Source: Caballeronia sp. NK8
GTDB lineage: Bacteria; Pseudomonadota; Gammaproteobacteria; Burkholderiales; Burkholderiaceae
Length of the DNA stretch: 64,000 bases
Direction: 5' to 3'
Assembly (NCBI RefSeq): GCF_018408855.1
Contig: NZ_AP024325.1
Span: 744,001 to 808,000, forward strand
Shown piece by piece: positions 47,097-52,257 of this stretch. The notes beneath the pieces were generated by a model, which was not told where the DNA came from, searched no databases, and saw only the letters and a program-made list of their open reading frames with translations. How positions within the stretch are numbered: position 1 is the first letter of the stretch; each line of letters begins with the position of its first letter. The position numbers and the translations under genes are program-made.

Positions 47097-47518
47097 CTCG
47101 ACTCGCGGTTCACCGCACGCAGTAACACTGTGCCTGCGCGCTGCAACGCCAGGCAAGCTTCTCAGCTATTCGCCATTCACTAAGTTCAAGACCCGACGCG
47201 GGTCAGTCAGCGGCATGAGTTGCTGGCGTCGCGTTCGAGCAACTGGCAGGCCGCCGGCGTCTGGGAGCAGTTGCATGAGGTGCTGCTTGCGCGATAGGTC
47301 ATGACCTCGGAAACCGGCGGGGCAGCCGAGATGTAAAAGCGGTTCACCACGCATGACGTCGATGCAGAGCCGGGTGCATCCCACACGGCCCAAAAATCTC
47401 AGTGCAGCGCACCGGCGCAAATCGTTCACGCTGCGGAGCAAAGCAGAAATCGATCTTTGGCGCGCTGGGCCGCGTTGCTAACATCGCCGCTCCATTCCAA
47501 CGGCCCACCATAACGACA
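47097..47518. other. Intergenic stretch with transposase debris, upstream of the sulfatase gene
   Basis: About 420 bases without an intact gene. The middle carries a transposase-like scrap (next entry). The rest should contain the sulfatase promoter, but I see no clear element. Confidence 0.45.
47209..47303 (+). pseudogene. IS5-type transposase N-terminal remnant
   Basis: Two frames join into a piece typical of IS5-group transposases: SGMSCWRRVRA, then NWQAAGVWEQLHEVLLAR and a stop. One frame change and the loss of both ends show it is a relic. No terminal inverted repeats are recognised. Confidence 0.55.
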
Positions 47519-49462
47519 ATGATCACGTCCCGTTCGATTGCGTTCCGTCGCGCTGCGCTCGCGCTTGCCATAGGCAGTCTGTTCACGATTGCCTCATGCG
47601 GTTCTTCCGACGACGGCGCGCCCGCCACTACGCCCGTCGCCTCCGCGGCCAAGCGTCCGAACATCCTCTACATCATGGCCGACGATCTCGGCTACTCGGA
47701 CATTCATGCCTTCGGCGGCGAGATCAATACGCCCAATCTCGATGCGCTGGTCCAATCCGGCCGCATCCTGACGAATCATCACACCGGCACCGTCTGCGCC
47801 ATCACGCGAGCGATGCTGATCTCGGGCACGGATCATCACCTCGTCGGCGAAGGGACGATGGGCGTGCCCACCGACGAGCGCAAAGGCCTGCCCGGTTACG
47901 AAGGCTATCTGAATGACCGCGCGCTGTCGGTGGCGCAACTGCTCAAGGACGGCGGATATCACACGTACATGGCGGGCAAATGGCATATCGGCTCGGGCAT
48001 CGTCGGCAGCACGACGGGCGGCGGACAGACGCCGGATCAGTGGGGCTTCGAGCACAGCTATGCGCTGCTCGGCGGCGCGGCGACGAATCACTTTGCGCAT
48101 GAGCTCGCGGGCTCGAAGAACTACACCGAGGACGGTCAATACGTGCAACCGGGACAGCCCGGTCAGCCGGGCGGTACGGGCGGCAGTCCGGCCGTGTTCT
48201 ACTCGACCGACTTCTACACGCAAAAGCTCATCTCCTACATCGATTCGAACAAGGGCGACGGCAAACCGTTCTTTGCGTACGCCGCGTACACGTCGCCGCA
48301 CTGGCCGCTGCAGGTGCCGGAGCCGTATCTGCACAACTACGCGGGCAAATATGACGCCGGCTACGTTGCGATCCGCAATGCGCGCATCGCGCGACAAAAG
48401 GCGCTCGGCATCATTCCGGCCGACTTCACGCCGTACCAGGGCGCACCGGAAACGCTGACCCAATCGCCGGCGACAGCGAATAACGGCGCCGCGAACGCCA
48501 GGTACATCAGCGCCGTGCATGGCGCAGCGCAAGGTTACAGCGACTACGGTCCGGGAACCGTCGACAAGTCCTGGAACAGCCTGTCCACCGCGGAGAAGAA
48601 AGCACAGGCGCGCTATATGGAAATCTACGCGGGCATGGTCGAGAACCTCGATCACAACATCGGGCTGTTGATCCAGCATCTGAAGGACATCGGTGAATAC
48701 GACAACACGTTCATCATGTTCCAGTCGGACAACGGCGCGGAAGGCTGGCCGATCGATTCCGGCGCCGATCCGACCGCAACCGACACCGCGAACGCGACGG
48801 ACACGATCTACACCACGCTCGGCACCGATAACGGCAAGCAAAACGCACAGCGCCTGCAATATGGTCTGCGTTGGGCGGAAGTGAGCGCCACGCCGTTCCG
48901 TCTCACCAAGGGGTACTCCGGCGAAGGCGGTGTGTCGACGCCGCTCATCGTGCATCTGCCCGGTCAGGCTGCGCAACTGCCCACGCTGCGCGCATTCACA
49001 CACGTCACCGACAACACGGCGACCTTCCTCGCGGTCGCGAAAATCGATCCGCCAACGCAAGCCGCGCCGCCGCTTGTCAACACGCTGACGGGCGTCGATT
49101 CGAACAAGGGCAAGGTCGTCTACAACAACCGATATGTATATCCGGTGACGGGTCAATCGCTGTTGCCGTTGCTCAATGGCGATGCGTCGGGTGAAGTCCA
49201 CACCGCCGCGTTCGGCGACGAGGCCTACGGCCGCGGCTATCTGCGCAGCTCCGACGGCCGCTGGAAGGCGTTGTGGACCGAACCGCCGAGCGGTCCCGTC
49301 GACGGACACTGGCAGCTCTTCGACCTGCAGGCCGATCGCGGCGAGAACAACGACGTCGCCACGCAGAATCCGTCGGTCATCGACAGTCTCGTGCAGCAGT
49401 GGAACACCTACATGAGCACGGTCGGAGGCGTCGAGCCGCTGCGTCCGCGCGGCTACTACTGA
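47519..49462 (+). CDS. Lipoprotein sulfatase with atypical formylglycine motif
   Basis: About 647 residues. The leader ends in a lipobox (FTIASC, Cys27), so it is exported and lipid-anchored. Alkaline-phosphatase-fold sulfatase: metal-binding DD in YIMADDLGYSD (55-56), the active Cys in TVCAITRAMLISG (Cys93), GTDHHLVGEG, MAGKWHIG and FQSDNGAEGW. The family maturation motif is C-x-P/A-x-R (CSPTR in close relatives); here it is CAITR, with Ile at the third position. It therefore depends on an FGE accepting a non-standard site, and the next gene encodes an FGE-like protein. The start at 47519 is fixed by the lipoprotein leader. Substrate (aryl or alkyl sulfate) unknown. Confidence 0.9.
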   Translation: MITSRSIAFRRAALALAIGSLFTIASCGSSDDGAPATTPVASAAKRPNILYIMADDLGYSDIHAFGGEINTPNLDALVQSGRILTNHHTGTVCAITRAMLISGTDHHLVGEGTMGVPTDERKGLPGYEGYLNDRALSVAQLLKDGGYHTYMAGKWHIGSGIVGSTTGGGQTPDQWGFEHSYALLGGAATNHFAHELAGSKNYTEDGQYVQPGQPGQPGGTGGSPAVFYSTDFYTQKLISYIDSNKGDGKPFFAYAAYTSPHWPLQVPEPYLHNYAGKYDAGYVAIRNARIARQKALGIIPADFTPYQGAPETLTQSPATANNGAANARYISAVHGAAQGYSDYGPGTVDKSWNSLSTAEKKAQARYMEIYAGMVENLDHNIGLLIQHLKDIGEYDNTFIMFQSDNGAEGWPIDSGADPTATDTANATDTIYTTLGTDNGKQNAQRLQYGLRWAEVSATPFRLTKGYSGEGGVSTPLIVHLPGQAAQLPTLRAFTHVTDNTATFLAVAKIDPPTQAAPPLVNTLTGVDSNKGKVVYNNRYVYPVTGQSLLPLLNGDASGEVHTAAFGDEAYGRGYLRSSDGRWKALWTEPPSGPVDGHWQLFDLQADRGENNDVATQNPSVIDSLVQQWNTYMSTVGGVEPLRPRGYY

Positions 49463-49469
49463 GCGCGGC

Positions 49470-50513
49470 ATGAAACGGCACTGGCAGACTATCGGCGGCG
49501 CGGCGCTCGTCATCGGCTTACTGTTCGCGGGAGGCTTTGGCGCGGCGCTCGCCGTGAACGCCGATCGCGGTTTCGATCCGCGCAATCTGACGCGCGCGCT
49601 CGCCCCGCTCGGCTCCGAGCAGCAATGCGAGCGCTACACCGGCCTGCCCGCGCACTGGCGTGACGATTCGCACGCGGGCATGGTGCATCTGAGCGGCGGC
49701 GAGTTCGTGTTCGGCAGCAAGCTCGGTTATGAGGATGAAAGTCCCGCCGGCGACGGGAGAACAAGAGTCGGAGGCTTCTGGATCGACCAGACCGATGTCA
49801 CGAATGCGCAGTTTGCCGCCTTCGTCGATGCGACCGGCTATGTGACCGAAGCCGAACGCCAGGGCGGCGCGGTCGTCTTTCATGTGCCCACGCGCGAAGA
49901 AATGAACGCACGTGATCTCGCTTGGTGGTCGTGGGTGAAGGGTGCGTCATGGAATCATCCGCAAGGTCCGTCGAGCACATGGAAGGGTCGCGAGAACCAG
50001 CCCGTCACGATGGTCACGCTCGCCGACGCCCTCGCCTACGCCCACTGGCTCGGACGTGACCTGCCGACGGAAGCCGAGTGGGAATACGCGGGCAAGGCCG
50101 GTCACGAAGGCGCCGAACTCGACGCCGCCCCGCGCGATCCGCACGGCAAGCCATCGGCGAATTACTGGCAAGGCGTGTTTCCCGTGCTCGATTCAGCCGA
50201 GGACGGTCACGCGGGGCTCTCGCCGGTCGGGTGTTACGCAGCCAATGACTTCAGGCTCTACGACATGATCGGCAATGCCTGGGAATGGACCCGCGATCCG
50301 TACACCGGAGCGCGCCAGCCGCATGCGAACGGCGACACTGCAGCGGTCGCGCCCGCCACCCGCCGGCACGATACGGCGATGGTCATCAAGGGCGGCTCGT
50401 TCCTGTGCTCACGCGATTACTGCGTGCGCTACCGGGCGTCGTCGCGCGAGCAGCAGGAAGCGGATCTGCCGGCATCGCATATCGGCTTTCGCACCGTGTC
50501 GAGGGATGGGTGA
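49470..50513 (+). CDS. Membrane-anchored formylglycine-generating enzyme (SUMF1 family)
   Basis: 347 residues. One N-terminal membrane segment (AALVIGLLFAGGFGAALAV) places the catalytic domain in the periplasm. FGE-sulfatase fold: VHLSGGEFVFGS, FWIDQTDVTNAQFAAFV, LPTEAEWEYAGKAG, MIGNAWEWTRDPY, and the copper-binding Cys pair in GGSFLCSRDYCVRYR (Cys313, Cys318). FGE converts the sulfatase Cys to formylglycine. It begins 7 bases after the sulfatase stop, and its own stop overlaps the next start (TGATG). A periplasmic FGE would act after export, unlike cytosolic bacterial FGEs. Confidence 0.9.
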   Translation: MKRHWQTIGGAALVIGLLFAGGFGAALAVNADRGFDPRNLTRALAPLGSEQQCERYTGLPAHWRDDSHAGMVHLSGGEFVFGSKLGYEDESPAGDGRTRVGGFWIDQTDVTNAQFAAFVDATGYVTEAERQGGAVVFHVPTREEMNARDLAWWSWVKGASWNHPQGPSSTWKGRENQPVTMVTLADALAYAHWLGRDLPTEAEWEYAGKAGHEGAELDAAPRDPHGKPSANYWQGVFPVLDSAEDGHAGLSPVGCYAANDFRLYDMIGNAWEWTRDPYTGARQPHANGDTAAVAPATRRHDTAMVIKGGSFLCSRDYCVRYRASSREQQEADLPASHIGFRTVSRDG

Positions 50514-51298
50514 TGCGTCTGGGCGCAACTCTCGTAGGCGCGCTCGTCGCCGTGTGCTGCACGTTCGTCGATGCGGCGCCGCGCGCTGTCCGTATCGGCG
50601 TGACGGCGGGCGAAGAAGCGCAGATCATGGCGCAGGTGCGCGATGTCGCGGCGAAACAAGGACAGCCACTCGATATCGTCGTCTTCGATAACCCATTGCA
50701 CATCGACGCCGCGCTGGCGGGCGGCTCGATCGACGCGGCCAGCTTCGAGGACGAAGCAAGCCTCGACGCGCGGCGCAGGCGCGACGGCTACGCGATTCGA
50801 AGCGTCGCCGCAACCGTGACCTTGCCGATGGCCCTCTACTCGCGCAAGCTCGCATCGCTCGCCCAACTCACGCGCGGCGCGACCATCGCCATACCCGACG
50901 ACGCGCCCGGCATCGCGCGTGCGCTGATCTTGCTGCAGAACTATACGTTCATCACGCTGCAGGACAGTGCGGGACTCTCGCCCACCGTCGCGGATATCAC
51001 GAGCAACCGCTACGGCCTCGTCATCCGTCGTGTGCCGCGCGCCCGGCTGTACGCGATGCTCGACACAGCAAGCTTCGTCGCAATGAACGCCGACGACGCC
51101 GCGCACGCCGGCCTGATGCCGGGACGCGACAGTATCGGCATCGAGGATGCCCGCTCGCCCTGGCAACACGTGCTCACAGTGCGTTCAAGCGAAGCGAACG
51201 CGCCATGGGTCGCGCAACTCGTGCGCGCCTGTCACTCCGACGACGTCGCCCGCTTCATCCTCGCGCGCTTTCAGGATTCGGTGCGCAGACCATGGTGA
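50513..51298 (+). CDS. NlpA/MetQ-like periplasmic binding protein
   Basis: 261 residues. The signal-peptide-like start LGATLVGALVAVCCTFVDA has no clear lipobox. The body follows the NlpA lipoprotein pattern: RIGVTAGEEAQIMAQVRDVA, GQPLDIVVFDNPLHIDAALA, GSIDAASFEDEASLDARR, IAIPDDAPGIARALILLQN. NlpA/MetQ proteins bind methionine or related small molecules for MetNI importers, but no ATPase or permease is present here. GAGGG precedes the ATG, which overlaps the FGE stop by one base. It might present a sulfur compound or act as a sensor; this is inference. Confidence 0.8.
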   Translation: MRLGATLVGALVAVCCTFVDAAPRAVRIGVTAGEEAQIMAQVRDVAAKQGQPLDIVVFDNPLHIDAALAGGSIDAASFEDEASLDARRRRDGYAIRSVAATVTLPMALYSRKLASLAQLTRGATIAIPDDAPGIARALILLQNYTFITLQDSAGLSPTVADITSNRYGLVIRRVPRARLYAMLDTASFVAMNADDAAHAGLMPGRDSIGIEDARSPWQHVLTVRSSEANAPWVAQLVRACHSDDVARFILARFQDSVRRPW

Positions 51299-52257
51299 GC
51301 CAGTTTCCACACGCGTTTTCGTTCGAATGCACGACGTGCGGCAAGTGCTGTAACAGCCCGCCCGCGCTGTCGTTACGCGAACTGTTCCGCTATCGCGATG
51401 TGTTCATCGGCGCCATTGCGATCAGCCGGGCGCCGCGCATGCGTGCGGGCCAGCGTGTGCGCATCGGCCCATATGAAACCCTTCTGAGCGATGAGGACGC
51501 GAGCGCCTGTGACGCGCTCGCCCGGCTACACACCTTTCCCATCGGGGCGCATGGCGATTTCATCAGCGTGACGACACAGGCCATCGACTACGCTTCGCCC
51601 GGCCGCTGCCCCGCTCTCGCGGACGACGGACTTTGCCGCCTGCATGCCGATGGCAAACCGGATCAGTGCATCGCCGTGCCGCTCGACCCGCTCGTGCCCG
51701 ACCGTCTGCAACATGTCGTTCTGGCGCAGCGCTCGTTCGGCGAGGGCTGGCTCGGTGCGCAGTGCATCGAGCCGGGCGAGCGGCGCGATCCGGCGCTGGT
51801 CGCGAACGGCGGCATCGTCGCCAATGACGCGAAAGCGGCGATGGACCGCCGGCGTCGCGCGCTTGCAACGGAGCGCGAGTGGTGCGGCCGGACGATCGTC
51901 GATGCACTCCTATGCGACTTCGCTGCCGATCCCCGCCGCGCGCTGGCCCAGGTTCCCGAGAACGGATACCGGACCATTTCGCTCGTGCCCGCGTTGCTCG
52001 TCATCGGCGGAATGTCGCCGGCACTTGCGCAGCATTGCATCGGCTATATCGACGCTCAGACGGGGCTGATCCGCCGCAGCATCACGCGCGCGATCGAGCG
52101 GCGCCGCCTCGACGACCGGCCGATGACGCAGACACTGCGCGCTTTTCTCGATGCCCTGGCCCGCGCGCGCGAACATCTCGCGAGCGTCCCCGCTCAATCG
52201 AACGCATCGTCGCTCGCAGAGCAAGCAGAGACCTACTTTCTGGGCCACGGCTGCTGA
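51292..52257 (+). CDS. YkgJ-type cysteine-cluster protein
   Basis: 321 residues. The N-terminus has the family cluster CTTCGKCCNSPP (CxxCxxCC, about residues 12-19), and later Cys in GRCPALADDGLCRLHADGKP and QCIAV complete a probable metal (Zn or Fe-S) site. No signal peptide or membrane segment. The ATG overlaps the end of the NlpA-like gene (ATGGTGA), so all four genes from 47519 are coupled. The biochemical role of the family is largely unknown. A role in copper or iron supply, or in modifying the sulfatase system, is only a guess. Confidence 0.83.
   Translation: MVSQFPHAFSFECTTCGKCCNSPPALSLRELFRYRDVFIGAIAISRAPRMRAGQRVRIGPYETLLSDEDASACDALARLHTFPIGAHGDFISVTTQAIDYASPGRCPALADDGLCRLHADGKPDQCIAVPLDPLVPDRLQHVVLAQRSFGEGWLGAQCIEPGERRDPALVANGGIVANDAKAAMDRRRRALATEREWCGRTIVDALLCDFAADPRRALAQVPENGYRTISLVPALLVIGGMSPALAQHCIGYIDAQTGLIRRSITRAIERRRLDDRPMTQTLRAFLDALARAREHLASVPAQSNASSLAEQAETYFLGHGC

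Follow-up and report, generated by a model that had tools for sequence, protein, structure and literature searches.

A cassette of four genes, SULF, FGE, NLPA and CYS, occupies positions 47519–52257 of a 64,000-nucleotide stretch (the window) of the 9.2-Mb genome of Caballeronia sp. NK8 (contig NZ_AP024325.1, positions 744,001 to 808,000), with all four genes on the forward strand. It probably encodes a co-translated unit for scavenging sulfate esters, in which the sulfatase SULF is activated outside the cytoplasm, presumably by the neighbouring formylglycine-generating enzyme FGE, with NLPA as a ligand-binding partner and CYS remaining in the cytoplasm. The reading is built on the co-inheritance of the genes, an altered target motif that contains the only cysteine of the sulfatase domain and an extra cysteine that is typical of this clade of apparently exported FGEs. 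The nearest named homologues are Caballeronia proteins. The features are as follows.

47519–49462, + strand: SULF, predicted lipoprotein S1-type sulfatase, 647 amino acids; PF00884 and homology to AtsA
47597–47599, + strand: lipobox Cys27 of SULF (IAS-C-GSS, Gly at +2)
47795–47809, + strand: formylglycine motif of SULF, C93-A-I-T-R97, with Ile at the Pro position
49470–50513, + strand: FGE, predicted exported formylglycine-generating enzyme, 347 amino acids; PF03781
about residues 8–29 of FGE, + strand: N-terminal hydrophobic segment
49626–49628, + strand: FGE Cys53, in the N-terminal extension
50232–50234, + strand: FGE Cys255, typical of the clade predicted to be exported
50406–50423, + strand: catalytic pair of FGE, C313-SRDY-C318 (CSRDYC)
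50513–51298, + strand: NLPA, predicted exported protein of the MetQ/NlpA fold, 261 amino acids; PF03180; no lipobox; altered ligand pocket
50747–50752, + strand: NLPA E79-D80, replacing Q87-H88 of MetQ
51292–52257, + strand: CYS, CxxCxxCC (PF03692-like) protein, 321 amino acids; no signal sequence seen
51328–51351, + strand: CYS motif C13-x2-C16-x2-C19-C20, with further conserved C106, C115, C126 and C158
47455–47484, + strand: promoter-like block 5′ of SULF, CTTTGG (47455–47460), 18 bases, TAACAT (47479–47484)

An earlier, sequence-only reading of this DNA had described the four genes as coupled, and the junctions bear this out. The stop codon of SULF is 7 bases from the ATG of FGE, FGE and NLPA have TGATG in common (a 1-base overlap), and NLPA and CYS have ATGGTGA in common, a 7-base overlap with the ATG start, where the nearer GTG start would give 4. 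Overlapping starts are conserved at the FGE/NLPA junction in 29 of 32 loci and at the NLPA/CYS junction in 27 of 27, though these gaps are biased towards zero because the script picks the start nearest to the upstream stop. In six pairs of cassettes dN/dS was 0.055–0.131 for SULF and FGE, 0.12–0.30 for NLPA and 0.14–0.40 for CYS; all four genes are under purifying selection, with NLPA and CYS evolving faster yet constrained. The pattern TTTGG-N14..22-GCTA[AC][CG]AT, which covers the block upstream of SULF and may mark a promoter, is present in 22 of the 33 loci tested, the window included, and absent from L040, L074, L076, L103–L109 and L112. More conserved bases are found 5′ of this block and could hold an activator site.

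The distribution of the cassette was followed in 200 Burkholderiaceae genomes. FGE matches were found in 51 of these at E ≤ 1e-50, and 41 form a clear orthologue group (E ≤ 1e-120, other places being 1e-72 or weaker), for all of which the surroundings were viewed (the window and 40 fetched loci). SULF is directly upstream of FGE in 38 of the 41; it is not near FGE in G002 and G089 and is cut off by the contig end in G178. The earlier reading would have been refuted had the last two genes not been kept beside the first two; this is not what was found, since NLPA follows FGE in 31 of the 41 and CYS comes after in 28, in G093 only as a 40-residue remnant. All four genes stand in the same order in 27 of the 28 genomes that have an FGE orthologue and a CYS match, counting G093; the 28th, G178, ends at the contig edge upstream of FGE. 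NLPA is lacking in seven genomes of one genus (g24, at a guess Ralstonia-like from the chemotaxis and flagellar neighbours in its loci) and in G002, G089 and G196, and is present without CYS in G011, G169 and G131.

CYS is matched in 29 of the 200 genomes, and in each its best place adjoins NLPA (L008–L036). Its occurrence in 28 of 41 genomes with an FGE orthologue against 1 of 159 without gives a Fisher p of 4e-23, relatedness being ignored, and in the single exception, G091, the contig stops before FGE is reached; this genome also contains a second, partial and stop-containing piece of CYS without NLPA (L037). Among the matches listed for NLPA in the same 200 genomes, the 26 at E ≤ 1e-80 all belong to cassettes, followed by a fragment in G091 (1e-57) and then by a background of MetQ proteins of 37–42% identity from E 1e-55. 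The NLPA proteins of five g3 cassettes are only 44–46% identical to the query and are not distinguishable from this background. A second, frame-broken copy of cassette-type NLPA is present in the source genome itself (G000:C5:588431-588987; L093, L094).

A search at the level of the order (399 genomes, 16 FGE hits, with the 11 outside the family viewed) gave SULF-FGE-NLPA at one locus (L074) and SULF and FGE on the same strand without NLPA or CYS at seven (L076–L082; 596 bases apart in L078). The FGEs of the remaining three (L083–L085) are more distant, and at two of these loci a weakly similar sulfatase lies on the opposite strand. In a plasmid collection, CYS matched four Burkholderia and three Cupriavidus records and SULF matched those seven and six Acinetobacter records. 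We read this distribution as an older SULF-FGE pair that would have gained NLPA and then CYS within the Burkholderiales, with later losses. The arrangement had been put forward as new, which is too strong for the pair itself: without NLPA and CYS, it is found elsewhere in the Burkholderiales and, among the plasmid records, in Acinetobacter baumannii. The pair in A. baumannii NZ_CP043459.1 resembles that of the cassette in that its genes overlap, both proteins have a lipobox, recognised by eye, and the FGE has C255; it differs in having a canonical CSPTR motif, and no NLPA or CYS gene is annotated within 5 kb of the sulfatase match.

SULF matches PF00884 (E 3.4e-45) and its best solved relative is the arylsulfatase AtsA of Pseudomonas aeruginosa (PDB 1hdh; E 2e-106); the alignment pairs the catalytic positions of the two proteins. 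AtsA is cytoplasmic. SULF in contrast is a predicted lipoprotein, as the earlier reading had it, with the lipobox IASC ending in Cys27, and it carries CAITR as its motif. Amongst its best 120 database homologues 104 have the lipobox pattern, and 100 of those have Gly at +2. A glycine at this position directs a lipoprotein to the outer membrane by the Lol rule, so SULF would be expected there. The catalytic Cys and Arg are kept as C93 and R97, corresponding to Cys51 and Arg55 of AtsA (PMC5066984), which SulfAtlas places in S1_4, a label given here for AtsA alone (PMC5066984).

The motif is unusual in its middle position. Papers on FGE give CXPXR as the target consensus (PMC12123546; PMC4505483), described as a minimum, and formylglycine formation as a co- or post-translational step. 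In a SulfAtlas survey of 4058 sequences the middle residue is reported to be Pro in 87%, Ala in 369 sequences and any other residue in less than 1% each, and the updated sulfatase signature, C-x-P/A-x-R, allows only these two (PMC5066984). In 40 of 46 SULF-FGE loci, the truncated L113 left aside, the motif is C-A-[I/V]-T-R (CAITR in 36, CAVTR in 4), while five more distant loci and the Acinetobacter protein, counted in addition to the 46, have CSPTR and L078 has CSVTR. The best 120 homologues have CAITR in 115, CAISR in one, CAMTR in one and no match to the pattern in three. With Ile or Val at the Pro position, the SULF motif lies outside both the S1 signature and CXPXR, and the protein is filed here as an S1 homologue whose motif is off consensus. 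The genome has six other PF00884 places, and three of these show CTAGR, CTPGR and CAPSR, so that CAITR is a property of the clade and not of the species.

Counted from where the catalytic domain begins, SULF has no Cys other than the motif cysteine in 45 of 47 loci; L078 has three Cys and the truncated L113 none. Exactly one Cys is found in this region in 109 of the 120 database homologues (seven unscored, two with none, one with two and one with three). The three other sulfatases of the genome mentioned above contain 4, 4 and 6 Cys in their full sequences, though this comparison is small and not strictly like for like. A lone cysteine would suit export into an oxidising space. The proposal of the earlier reading that a surface sulfatase is matured after export is consistent with this, with the Gly at +2 and with C255 of the FGE clade described below, and is retained at the strength of these sequence features.

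FGE matches PF03781 (E 1.4e-64) and shares with human and bacterial FGE (SUMF1) the aerobic FGE domain, the catalytic Cys pair (C336/C341 in the human enzyme) and the core positions W179, W188, S333, R343, Y344 and R345. Both catalytic cysteines are present in 40 of 40 loci with the I/V-type motif and in six of six CSPTR-type proteins. It differs from these relatives in having an export-like N-terminus in a bacterium, the additional C53 and C255 and a partner whose motif is off CXPXR, the last being a feature of the presumed substrate and not of FGE itself. The Cys pair and the N-terminal anchor noted earlier were thus both found again, as CSRDYC and the hydrophobic N-terminus. The human enzyme is likewise described as acting outside the cytosol, in the endoplasmic reticulum (PMC4505483).

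The extra cysteines were counted in a mixed set of 138 FGE-family proteins, from the cassette loci, three other loci of the genome and the best 80 loci of a wider scan, of which 110 were scorable (both catalytic Cys and an uncut N-terminus). By a crude, home-made hydropathy rule 71 of the 110 have an export-like N-terminus. Position 255 is Cys in 50 of the 71 and in one of the 39 others (L122, just under the cut-off). These 50 make up the cassette clade taken broadly, Acinetobacter and the SULF-less L075 and L111 included; C255 marks the cassette FGE clade in these alignments. In all 51 proteins with C255 the 35 residues ahead of the domain contain one Cys or more, C53 in the window copy, and C53 and C255 may pair. 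The 21 export-like FGEs without C255 come mostly from other phyla (loci from Bacteroidota, Planctomycetota and Verrucomicrobiota), with one Castellaniella (L125), L001 of the source genome and two Streptomyces (L157, L173). Exported FGEs are therefore not peculiar to the cassette clade, such proteins occurring in several phyla and at a second place in this genome.

This second place (G000:C4:1014035-1017284; L001 and L097) contains another FGE, whose N-terminus is hydrophobic, together with a lipoprotein-like gene and a CTAGR sulfatase with a hydrophobic N-terminal stretch, and is a candidate for another exported FGE-sulfatase pair. Amongst the 39 FGEs without an export-like N-terminus, 21 have a CC-x-P/S motif ahead of the domain (such as CCVPSR, CCTPSR and CCAPSR; L152, L156, L161 and L162 are among the loci), and in 11 of these it reads C-x-P-x-R, resembling the target motif of FGE itself. 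Only two of the 71 export-like proteins have it, both from Streptomyces and probably miscalled. It is conceivable that this motif is a pseudo-substrate or a copper site.

NLPA matches PF03180 (E 1.4e-50) and its AlphaFold model (pLDDT 83.7) matches MetQ structures with E down to 5.6e-28, at 32–38% identity to the five best solved matches. Seven methionine contacts (Y, F, H, Y, R, N, N) are named for the Neisseria MetQ (PMC6739813), and these were transferred to E. coli numbering and compared in 40 NLPA sequences, the window included. Tyr69, His88 and Tyr91 are kept in none of the 40, position 88 being Asp in 39, while Phe86 is present in 39 and Arg144 in all 40; Asn202 is present in 7 (Asp in 27) and Asn229 in 20. 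Three other NlpA-family proteins of the genome keep all seven positions, one of them with Phe changed to Tyr. As judged from these alignments, the cage around the methionine side chain is lost in all 40 sequences. Of the ligand binding that the earlier reading gave to NLPA, this evidence reaches only the loss of the MetQ contacts to the methionine side chain. The earlier reading was right that the protein is unpaired: its neighbours are FGE and CYS and not MetN and MetI as for MetQ, and the cassette has no ABC transporter genes. The window copy has no lipobox and a lipobox-like pattern was seen in only 11 of 120 best homologues. The C-terminal heptapeptide DSVRRPW is shared by 119 of the 120, but two of the three MetQ proteins of the genome also end in a short aromatic tail, and the conserved tail is thus suggestive only.

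CYS matches PF03692 in the window below the 23-bit cut-off (21.2 bits, E 4.7e-4), and 50 of 60 homologues match it at E ≤ 0.01. The four motif cysteines are kept in 50–51 of the 51 homologues that cover them, nine of the 60 lacking the stretch, C106, C115 and C126 are present in 60 of 60 and C158 in 59. The N-terminal Cys cluster and the later conserved cysteines are like those of the YkgJ/FliB proteins of this family, from which CYS differs in a long helical C-terminal half without a significant solved relative. Its model is confident (pLDDT 90.3), and comparison with solved structures gave no significant sequence or fold match. FliB is described as binding a [4Fe-4S] cluster through a related motif, with eight conserved Cys and PF03692 cited (PMC8598068). 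By analogy CYS is probably cytoplasmic and probably holds an Fe-S cluster. The metal-handling role given to it previously is unsupported, as no signal sequence was seen and the motif may hold a cytoplasmic [4Fe-4S] cluster on the FliB precedent (PMC8598068).

Several other explanations were weighed. Another FGE or maturase might mature SULF while it is still in the cytoplasm, in which case the cassette FGE would have another target or be on the way to being lost. The genome does have seven PF03781 matches, a total that includes the cassette FGE and counts the two halves of one gene separately, and two genomes keep FGE without SULF. However, among its other FGE-domain loci L001, L003 and L004 (L005–L007 being unscored) only L001 has the full Cys pair, this protein likewise has a hydrophobic N-terminus and lies near its own sulfatase, and SULF adjoins the cassette FGE in nearly all the orthologue genomes; we regard this explanation as improbable. 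A more serious contender, though still somewhat unlikely, is a role of NLPA as an accessory solute-binding protein for the housekeeping MetNI or another ABC importer, on which it would dock so that the desulfated product or a sulfate ester is taken up. The MetQ fold, the invariant Arg144, which contacts the amino and carboxyl groups in MetQ, and the permease-like and ATPase-like genes recognised by eye beside one MetQ of the genome (L089) would fit such a role, while the rarity of the lipobox, the loss of the methionine cage and the absence of ABC genes from the cassette speak against it.

For CYS, the CX2CX2CC motif with four further conserved Cys and the cluster of FliB would also be consistent with a [4Fe-4S] protein methylase of the FliB type, acting on an exported partner ahead of its export. 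Comparison of CYS with solved structures, FliB being outside that comparison, gave nothing significant in sequence or fold, and such a function would seem quite unlikely. That NLPA and CYS are chance neighbours carried along is very improbable: they evolve faster than SULF and FGE and are absent from several SULF-FGE genomes, but their overlapping starts, the purifying selection and the near restriction of CYS to genomes with an FGE orthologue all argue otherwise.

In the preferred reading, that of a sulfate-ester scavenging unit with maturation outside the cytoplasm, SULF would be exported, lipidated at its lipobox and probably end in the outer membrane. FGE would be exported and either anchored to the inner membrane or released from it, and, judging from its family and anatomy, would use Cu(I) and O2 in the periplasm to oxidise Cys93 of SULF to formylglycine, presumably accepting the altered C-A-[I/V]-T-R motif with which it is co-inherited. 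NLPA would be a binding protein of the periplasm, derived from MetQ but no longer holding methionine as MetQ does, and may capture substrate or product or assist FGE or SULF. CYS would stay in the cytoplasm, probably with its Fe-S cluster. A more ambitious version is rather doubtful, namely a pathway like that of the human endoplasmic reticulum, with a disulfide-stabilised exported FGE, a rewritten motif, an outer-membrane sulfatase matured in the oxidising periplasm, a MetQ-derived maturation, copper or substrate factor and a cytoplasmic Fe-S protein tying the unit to the sulfur or redox state.

Several points weigh against the preferred reading. At the aligned FGE positions no clear rewrite of the proline pocket was found. 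The export rule miscalls some FGEs, the Streptomyces L157 and L173 looking like false positives, and the C255 counts are not independent since the 50 proteins are related by descent. A cytoplasmic CYS sits somewhat awkwardly in a unit that works in the periplasm. Of the 41 genomes with an FGE orthologue, 10 lack NLPA and 13 lack CYS, so that neither is needed for the basic reaction, and G002 and G089 keep FGE with neither SULF nor NLPA nearby (L075, L111). A review places Cys-type sulfatases typically in the cytosol and Ser-type enzymes in the periplasm (PMC3920027); if SULF is indeed exported, its clade would be an exception to this rule.

A clade with Ile or Val fixed at the Pro position, beside what appears to be its own exported FGE, would allow a direct test of where sulfatases are matured in Gram-negative bacteria. 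The same clade would test how FGE recognises its target, a recognition on which the aldehyde tag is also based. Of the two added proteins, NLPA would be a MetQ-fold protein with a probably new job, and CYS is a Cys-cluster protein almost confined to the cassette in the sample of 200 genomes.

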